Shown here piece after piece: positions 573-4,113 of a stretch of DNA of 39,308 nt; within the stretch, counting starts at the first letter, position 1, and the number at the start of each line of letters is the position of its first letter. The position numbers and the translations under genes were made by a program. The DNA is from Pelagibacteraceae bacterium (GTDB lineage: Bacteria; Pseudomonadota; Alphaproteobacteria; Pelagibacterales; Pelagibacteraceae), in NCBI GenBank assembly GCA_008638165.1, contig VTPL01000003.1, forward strand, positions 1 to 39,308, written 5' to 3'. Under the pieces are notes generated by a model. It did not search any database. It was not told where the DNA came from and was given only the letters and a program-made list of their open reading frames with translations.

Positions 573-633
573 CCGGTTAAGCCACCATAGTAATTTCCAT
601 TTAAGGACCGGAGGTATAAAACCAAATACTATG
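573..633 (-). promoter_or_regulatory. Candidate structured 5' leader of rpsB (possible H-type pseudoknot)
   Basis: In sense orientation CATAGTA (633-627) pairs with TACTATG (592-586), and CCGGT (611-607) pairs with ACCGG (577-573), in interleaved a-b-a'-b' order, ending 8 nt before the rpsB ATG. Confidence 0.45.
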
Positions 634-693: not shown

Positions 694-3600
694 TTAGTGA
701 ATATTAAGGCTTATATCCTTATTTCTTAAGATATTAATTGTTTTTCTATCAAAATTTCTTGATGTTTTAAGCTTAAAAACACTAGTGGTTGAATTTTCAA
801 AAATAGAAATATTTACAACTGTATCACCCTTTTCATCTAAAAAATTTTGTATTTCTTTAAGCTGTGATTTAGATGATAAATTTAAAGTAATTTCACTAAT
901 TGAACTATTAAATAGATCTTTTAATGAGGCAATTTTTCTAACGTTAATTCTTTTTGTTTTATCTTCATCAGATGAAATGGTTTTTGTTAAAGTTAAAATT
1001 AATGAAGATCCTTCTTTTAAACTATCCCTGTTTAATTCCAAAACATCGGAAAAAATAAAGAGTTCAAAAACACTAGTTAAATCTGTTAGTTTTAATACAG
1101 CGTAGGAATTTCCTTTAGCAGTTTTTCGTTCAGTAACTTTTAATAGAGTTGCTGCTATATTATTTTCTTTAATATCATCGTCATCAAAGAAATTTTGATA
1201 ATTTATAATCTTATAGTCATCGAAAATCTCTTTAAATTGATTTAGTGGATGATCGGAAATAAAAAAACCTACTGCCTCAAATTCTTTAGACAATCTTTCT
1301 TCAAATTCCCAATCTTTAGTATTTTCAATTATATCGTTTTCAGCTTCATTATTATCACCAAATAAATCAATTTGATTAGCTACTTTATTATCAAAATCAT
1401 TTTTAGATTTTGTAATTATGTTTGGAATAGAATTAAATATTGATTGTCTATTATTATTTAAATTATCAAAAGCACCGGCCTTAACTAAACCTTCAAGCTG
1501 AAGTTTATTAATATCTTTAGGGTCTACTCTTTTGATGAAATCATTAATAGATTTAAAATTTCCATTTTTTATTCTTTCTTTTACGATGTTGGATATTGCT
1601 TCAGAACCAACTGCTTTTATGCCTCCTAGCGCATAATAGAATTTATCATTTTCAGTTCTAAAATCAGCAAAACATTCGTTAATATCGGGCCTAATTACTT
1701 CGACATTTAATCTTTTTAGCTCTTCATAAAATTCACTTAGTTTATTTTGATTAGAAATATCCATTGTCATTGATGCAGCTATAAACTCTTTAGGGTAATA
1801 GGTTTTCAAATATGCAGTTTGATATGAAATTATTGCATAAGCTGCTGCATGACTTTTATTAAAACCATATTCTGCGAACGGTTCTATTTTTAAAAAAATT
1901 CCTGCTGCAACGTCTTTACTTATTCCGTTATTAACTGCACCTGCAATAAAATTCTGTTTTTGTTTCTCTAACTCTGCCCTTTTCTTTTTTCCCATAGCTC
2001 TTCTTAGAATATCTGCTTGACCAGCAGTAAAACCAGATAATTTTTGAGCAATTTGCATGACTTGCTCTTGATAGATTATTACTCCATAAGTTGGCTTTAA
2101 AATATCTTCTAATAATGGATGCAAATAATCAGGTGTTTTTCTGCCATGCTTACAATCATTATATATTGGAATATTGCTCATTGGTCCTGGTCGATATAAA
2201 GCAACTAAAGCAATAATATCTTCAATGTGATTAGGCTTCATATGAATTAAAGCATCTCTCATACCAGCACTTTCAATTTGAAATAAACCAACTGTTTTTC
2301 CAGAGGACATTAATTCAAAAACTTTTTGATCCTCAAAGCTAATATCTTCAATATTAAAATCTTTGTGTTTTTTTTGAATTAATTTTTGAGTGTTATTAAT
2401 AACTGTTAATGTTTTTAATCCTAAAAAATCAAATTTAACTAAACCAGCATTTTCAGCTGAATACATATCGAATTGTGTTGATGGTAATAATAAATCTGCT
2501 GTTGAGTCTTTGTATAGAGGGACAATTTCAGTTAATTTTTTATCTGCAATAACAACACCTGCAGCGTGTGTAGCTACATTTCTATTTAGGCCCTCTAATT
2601 TTAGAGAAAGATCGGTTAATTTTTTTACTCTTTGATCCTCATTAATTAATTTTTGAAGTCTTGGTTCACCTGCGATACATTCTGATAATGTTTGGGGTCT
2701 TGATGGATCAAATGGTATCATTTTAGAAATACTATCAACAAAACCATAGGCAAGCCCTAATACTCTTCCAACATCTCTAATAACCATTCTAGCTTTCAAT
2801 TTACCAAATGTAATTATGTGAGCTACACTGTCTTTATATTTTTTAGTTAAGTACTCAAAAACTAAATCTCTTTTTTCCTCACAAAAATCGATATCAAAGT
2901 CAGGCATTGAAATTCTATCAGGATTAAGAAATCTTTCAAAAATAAGATTGTATTTAATTGGATCAACATCGGTGATTGACAAACACCAAGCAACAAGTGA
3001 TCCTGCACCAGATCCTCTTCCAGGTCCAACTGGAATATCATTATTTTTTGCCCATTTAATATAATCAGAGACAATTAGAAAATAACTGGAATAATCCATC
3101 TTAATAATGATCTCTAATTCATGATCCAATCTATCTTTATAAATTAAAAATTTATCATTATTTTCTAAATCTTTTTCTTTAAGGTCAAAAAATTTATTAA
3201 ATTTTTCTTTGAGACCATCTAAAGAATTTTTTTTAATTATATCGCTTGCATTACCTTCATCTGATGAACTGATATTTGGTAAAATTGGTTTTGAAAAAAG
3301 TGGCCTAAAACTTGATCTATAAGGAAAATTATAATTGTTCTCTAGTGCTTCAGGTAGATCAGAAAATAAATCTGACATTTCACTATCATTTTTTAAATAA
3401 TGATTTGGGCTATATTTAATTCTATTCTTTTCATTAACATAAGTTTTGTTACCAATGCAAATAAGCGCATCATGAGCTTCGTGCATATCTTTTGTTAAAT
3501 AAAACACCTCATTTGTTGCAATAATTGGAATTTCTAATTTTTTTGATTGATCAAGATTAAATTTCTCAAATTCAATTTCATTAGGATCTTCATGTCTTTG

Positions 3601-4113
3601 AATTTCTAAATAAAACCTATCACCAAGTACTGCATTTAATTTCTTATAAAGGTTAATTATTTCATCAAATTTAGCTTTATCAAATAATTTGCCAAATAAC
3701 CCAAATATAGTTCCTGAAAAGACTGAAATTCCATTAGTATCTAATTTTAATAAATCGTTAATATCTAAATGTGGATCTGAAAGATCATCATTTTCCAAGT
3801 AAGAACGAGATGATAACTCTATAATCTTTTTATATCCCTCAAAATCTAGAGCAAATAATGGAAGTAAACCTACTGTATCATTAAATTTAAAATTTATTTG
3901 TGTTCCAATAATTGGTTGAGTTCCAACTTTTGATAATTTGTCAGAAAATTCGACTGCTCCACAAAGATTGGATGTATCACACATCCCCAATGCACTTATT
4001 TTGAGTTCTTTGGCATTATCTTTTAATTCATCAATTTTAATAGCTCCTTCACAAATTGAATACTGAGTATGAATTTTTAGATGATTAAATTTTTTATGAT
4101 TAGATTCTGGCAT
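694..4113 (-). CDS. dnaE: DNA polymerase III subunit alpha
   Basis: 1139 aa; N-terminal PHP-type region (FNHLKIHTQYSICEGAIKIDEL), GPGRGSGAGSLVAWCL and PDFDIDFC motifs of C-family polymerases. Confidence 0.97.
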   Translation of the reverse strand: MPESNHKKFNHLKIHTQYSICEGAIKIDELKDNAKELKISALGMCDTSNLCGAVEFSDKLSKVGTQPIIGTQINFKFNDTVGLLPLFALDFEGYKKIIELSSRSYLENDDLSDPHLDINDLLKLDTNGISVFSGTIFGLFGKLFDKAKFDEIINLYKKLNAVLGDRFYLEIQRHEDPNEIEFEKFNLDQSKKLEIPIIATNEVFYLTKDMHEAHDALICIGNKTYVNEKNRIKYSPNHYLKNDSEMSDLFSDLPEALENNYNFPYRSSFRPLFSKPILPNISSSDEGNASDIIKKNSLDGLKEKFNKFFDLKEKDLENNDKFLIYKDRLDHELEIIIKMDYSSYFLIVSDYIKWAKNNDIPVGPGRGSGAGSLVAWCLSITDVDPIKYNLIFERFLNPDRISMPDFDIDFCEEKRDLVFEYLTKKYKDSVAHIITFGKLKARMVIRDVGRVLGLAYGFVDSISKMIPFDPSRPQTLSECIAGEPRLQKLINEDQRVKKLTDLSLKLEGLNRNVATHAAGVVIADKKLTEIVPLYKDSTADLLLPSTQFDMYSAENAGLVKFDFLGLKTLTVINNTQKLIQKKHKDFNIEDISFEDQKVFELMSSGKTVGLFQIESAGMRDALIHMKPNHIEDIIALVALYRPGPMSNIPIYNDCKHGRKTPDYLHPLLEDILKPTYGVIIYQEQVMQIAQKLSGFTAGQADILRRAMGKKKRAELEKQKQNFIAGAVNNGISKDVAAGIFLKIEPFAEYGFNKSHAAAYAIISYQTAYLKTYYPKEFIAASMTMDISNQNKLSEFYEELKRLNVEVIRPDINECFADFRTENDKFYYALGGIKAVGSEAISNIVKERIKNGNFKSINDFIKRVDPKDINKLQLEGLVKAGAFDNLNNNRQSIFNSIPNIITKSKNDFDNKVANQIDLFGDNNEAENDIIENTKDWEFEERLSKEFEAVGFFISDHPLNQFKEIFDDYKIINYQNFFDDDDIKENNIAATLLKVTERKTAKGNSYAVLKLTDLTSVFELFIFSDVLELNRDSLKEGSSLILTLTKTISSDEDKTKRINVRKIASLKDLFNSSISEITLNLSSKSQLKEIQNFLDEKGDTVVNISIFENSTTSVFKLKTSRNFDRKTINILRNKDISLNIH

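Follow-up and report, generated by a model that had tools for sequence, protein, structure and literature searches.

A pseudoknotted leader of the rpsB motif family upstream of the ribosomal protein S2 gene in Pelagibacteraceae, with its pseudoknot close to the start codon

In Escherichia coli, ribosomal protein uS2 that exceeds the 30S subunits represses its own mRNA through the rpsB leader, with bS1 as a companion (2024 review, PMC10931766). The ribosome-binding site lies outside the operator, and control may be lost when a conserved bulge, located far upstream of that site, is deleted (PMC10931766). Rfam lists this leader as t44 RNA (RF00127); the 3′ arm of its pseudoknot falls outside the RF00127 model. 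It occupies a position homologous to that of the SAR11 leader considered here, and resembles it in the P1 core (CACACAC...GUGGAGGC) and in a 5-bp pseudoknot placed directly after P1. The two differ in the pseudoknot sequence, which is GGGGU/ACCCC in E. coli, and in spacing, as 24 nt, including a GAGGU Shine-Dalgarno sequence, separate the E. coli pseudoknot from the ATG. Control by uS2 was tested in E. coli, and would extend to the SAR11 leader by homology.

In Candidatus Pelagibacter ubique HTCC1062, an rpsB motif was described from the 129-nt dnaE-rpsB gap at 873155-873283 (Meyer et al., 2009; PMC2704228). The motif consists of P1, a 3-bp P2, a 2-bp P3 and a pseudoknot formed by J2/3 (PMC2704228). 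The SAM-V riboswitch of Pelagibacter is found in the same organisms and also places a pseudoknot within ~10 nt of a start codon. Unlike the rpsB leader, it is a simple pseudoknot that precedes metY, mmum or bhmt and binds S-adenosylmethionine (SAM), and the two share no sequence relation.

The leader analysed here is located in a 39,308-nt stretch of Pelagibacteraceae DNA, referred to as a whole as the window, and all features are on the minus strand. The rpsB gene, encoding ribosomal protein S2 (1-564; PF00318, E 1.8e-68), is truncated by the window end and begins with an ATG at 564-562. Its upstream neighbour is the co-directional dnaE gene for the DNA polymerase III alpha subunit (694-4113; PF07733, PF17657, PF02811 and PF14579), and the recomputed dnaE-rpsB gap is 129 nt, the length given in the preliminary description. 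Gene order downstream was read in a SAR11 relative (L041), as the window stops within rpsB; there tsf directly follows rpsB and is itself followed by frr, which is the arrangement of an rpsB-tsf operon. A transcription attenuator is not supported, because no terminator-like site was called in 540-900. The dnaE-rpsB gap yielded no sigma-70-like promoter. The sequence TTGTAAATA at 658-666 recurs in many SAR11 leaders approximately 20-30 nt upstream of P1 and might be a promoter element, with no sigma-70-like pair called.

A default Rfam scan with curated cut-offs returned tRNAs only. A permissive scan of 400-900 in the window placed the rpsB model, RF01815, at 556-637 (cmscan 32.8 bits, E 9.3e-5), with all 132 model positions spanned, and this match is the sole one in its own genome (E 4.1e-5). 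The window shares with the published motif the gene, the gap, the gap length, a bulged A in P1, a 3-bp P2, a 2-bp P3, a 5-bp J2/3 pseudoknot and the conserved UUAACCGG. The difference is in sequence only, the P1 arms being CATAGTA/TACTATG in the window versus CACAGTT/AACTGTG-type arms in HTCC1062. The window leader is the direct orthologue of the HTCC1062 motif. The preliminary description had proposed a pseudoknotted rpsB leader and had mentioned, without confirming the match, a Pelagibacter candidate; that candidate is RF01815, for which Meyer et al. (2009; PMC2704228) reported an identical context and gap length, and the full-model match and the covariation of both helices support the proposal.

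The window match lies under the gathering score of RF01815, 40 bits, which is an Rfam convention and not a biological feature. Of 247 genomes in the family Pelagibacteraceae, 154 had an RF01815 match, none above the cut-off; for the class the figures were 181 of 289 genomes with a match and 73 above the cut-off. One of the family genomes, G312, carries its match at 873211-873292 (33.3 bits), overlapping the published gap at 873155-873283 and the rpsB start. On the strength of this positional agreement, G312 can very likely be equated with HTCC1062. The 40-bit cut-off is therefore non-discriminating in SAR11, where 0 of 247 genomes pass it, G312 included.

The P1 helix is formed by a 5′ arm at 627-637 (CGC-A-CATAGTA, with A634 bulged) and a 3′ arm at 583-592 (TACTATG-GTG), as placed by the RF01815 match and an alignment of 64 leaders. 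The 7-bp helix CATAGTA/TACTATG of the preliminary description was recovered at 633-627 with 592-586, and three further pairs beyond the bulge (637-635 with 583-585), absent from that description, bring P1 to 10 bp. P1 closes a short three-way junction that holds two small helices likewise absent from it. P2 (613-623) has 3 bp, GGU/ACC, by leader comparison, as for P. ubique (Meyer et al., 2009), and is extended to GGGC..GCCC in deeper SAR11 branches. P3 (597-606) has 2 bp, CC/GG, as in Meyer et al. (2009), with 81% of cells paired. J2/3 then pairs with the segment immediately 3′ of P1 to make the pseudoknot. Its 5′ arm, CCGGU at 607-611, was defined by the alignment, other alphaproteobacteria and gammaproteobacteria, and its 3′ arm, ACCGG at 573-577, by the alignment. 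The interleaving of the two helices, their lengths and coordinates, and the end of the second helix (611-607 with 577-573, 5 bp, plus a possible U612-G572 wobble) 8 nt before the ATG had all been given correctly. The second helix had also been said to cover the GGGA tract; this tract lies at 574-571, and half of it is covered while the other half is not. An 8-nt linker, GAATAAAT (565-572), joins the pseudoknot to the start codon and contains no Shine-Dalgarno sequence. In Pelagibacter, J2/3 reads ACCUCCGGU (610-615) and includes the anti-Shine-Dalgarno-like ACCUCC. This hexamer is not retained in deeper SAR11 branches, other alphaproteobacteria (CUCCGGU) or gammaproteobacteria, and its presence is therefore probably a coincidence.

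Complementarity of this kind could arise by chance in an AT-rich gap. A perfect 7-bp helix was present in most shuffles of the leader, and when the 129 nt were shuffled with dinucleotides preserved, 67 of 5000 sequences (1.3%) gave a comparable interleaved pair of a 7-bp and a GC-rich 5-bp helix, so the interleaved geometry alone is only moderately unlikely by chance. Likewise, the minimum free energy of the leader folded without a pseudoknot was no better than that of shuffles (z 0.65), and single-sequence folding is uninformative. The comparison of leaders is what decides the matter. SAR11 rpsB upstream regions were chosen by protein similarity and not by the RNA model, and the same core was present in all 79 full-length regions, the window among them. 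With 64 of these 79 leaders in a plain MAFFT alignment, 95.7% of cells in P1 and the pseudoknot were paired, and the covariation score was 0.149 against 0.070 in shuffles, a value reached by 0 of 500 shuffles. Sliding the partners by 1-3 columns lowered pairing to 28-51%. Cells with both sides changed numbered 45 compared with 12.5 in shuffles, and 44 of the 45 were in P1, which was paired in 94.5% of cells and changed on both sides in 5 of its 10 pairs.

The pseudoknot, paired in 98% of cells, is nearly invariant within SAR11. Its single double change among the 64 leaders is compensatory (CCUGU/ACAGG, in L058), and its covariation within SAR11 on its own is weak. Other variants of the 3′ arm gave no rpsB leader match in 397 SAR11-family genomes; upstream of the five matches in that search, both the P1 5′ arm of the leader and any CCGGU-type arm were missing. 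Between classes the pseudoknot clearly covaries, being CCGGU/ACCGG in 30 other alphaproteobacteria and GGGGU/ACCCC, UGGGU/ACCCA or ACCCG, or CGGGU/ACCCG in gammaproteobacteria. Both helices hence show covariation, which for P1 is seen within SAR11 and for the pseudoknot chiefly in comparisons among classes; its absence from both was one of the outcomes that the preliminary description had named as speaking against such a leader. Because the helices are conserved, with compensatory changes, both in SAR11 and in Proteobacteria more widely, they are taken as real, and a chance origin, rejected on the covariation, is extremely improbable.

RNAalifold, run without pseudoknots on the SAR11 alignment (A1, columns 48-54 with 79-90), paired CCGGUCC to GG...ACCGG. 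This predicted pairing is possibly an alternative conformer; it would compete with the base of P1 and counts against the explanation preferred here.

The distance from the pseudoknot to the ATG is exactly 8 nt in 62 of the 79 SAR11 leaders (range 4-10), and in 73 of the 79 no Shine-Dalgarno match longer than 3 nt lies between them; a separate count gave 75 of 79 leaders without a Shine-Dalgarno sequence. In the 30 other alphaproteobacteria the distance is 12-20 nt, with a 5-7-nt Shine-Dalgarno sequence (AAAGGA/AGGAG) in 29 of 30. Most of 30 gammaproteobacteria have 13-25 nt there, with Shine-Dalgarno matches of 4-5 nt, an exception (L182) having an 8-nt gap with GGAG. The absence of the Shine-Dalgarno sequence is partly lineage-wide, because SAR11 uses few of them generally: with ORF starts called naively, a 4-mer match preceded 25% of ORFs in 200 kb of G312 (L183-L192) against a 13% background, and 49% against 16% in an alphaproteobacterial control. 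The anti-Shine-Dalgarno sequence was taken as canonical, since no 16S gene was found in the assembly of the window.

By homology with E. coli, the function of the leader is most likely autogenous control of rpsB-tsf by uS2. The preliminary description had stated that such control by S2 is established in E. coli, in agreement with the review (PMC10931766), and had treated its extension to this leader as inference, which is how we treat it as well. When uS2 exceeds the free 30S subunits, it would bind the fold made by the P1 bulge and the pseudoknot, probably together with bS1. Bound uS2 would stabilize the fold and block initiation of rpsB translation, which would lower tsf expression too. The likeliest blocking step is occlusion of the 30S landing site by the pseudoknot 3′ arm, which lies 8 nt ahead of the start codon, in the usual place of a Shine-Dalgarno sequence; the position of this arm in SAR11 favours direct occlusion. 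On these grounds, the SAR11 rpsB motif is quite probably a cis-acting leader of rpsB-tsf, built of P1 and a pseudoknot, through which uS2 would exert control, likeliest by occlusion.

Occlusion may nevertheless not be the mechanism, as the ribosome-binding site of E. coli is outside the operator (PMC10931766). A uS2-bS1 complex on the leader could act as in E. coli, trapping or excluding the 30S subunit while the ribosome-binding site stays single-stranded. The E. coli operator, which lacks that site and requires bS1 as companion (PMC10931766), and the 13-25 nt with a Shine-Dalgarno sequence that E. coli and most gammaproteobacteria keep past the pseudoknot speak for such action, but a SAR11 pseudoknot ending 8 nt from the ATG makes masking hard to avoid, and we regard action of this kind as rather unlikely in SAR11. 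A stronger departure from E. coli, proposed tentatively and with somewhat more doubt than belief, is that SAR11 has condensed the motif: the Shine-Dalgarno region would have given way to the 3′ arm of the pseudoknot, and the fold itself would have become an on/off gate for ribosome entry. A leader that works mainly as a positive element, as an entry platform for bS1 and the 30S subunit or as a determinant of mRNA stability, without uS2 feedback, in a genome with few Shine-Dalgarno sequences, would suit both their absence from SAR11 leaders and their low use in G312. That reading is distinctly improbable, since uS2 represses through the homologous RNA in E. coli (PMC10931766) and the fold and its position are common to alphaproteobacteria through gammaproteobacteria.

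Control by uS2 with likely occlusion is hence the preferred reading of an element that is already known: it is the published rpsB motif, and what is added here is confined to the difference in spacing and the excessive strictness of the Rfam cut-off. No sampled SAR11 genome reaches the RF01815 cut-off, and one of those lost in this way is very likely the genome from which the motif was first described. The SAR11 version, with its pseudoknot at the Shine-Dalgarno position, would suit as a simple system for the mechanism of uS2 autoregulation.
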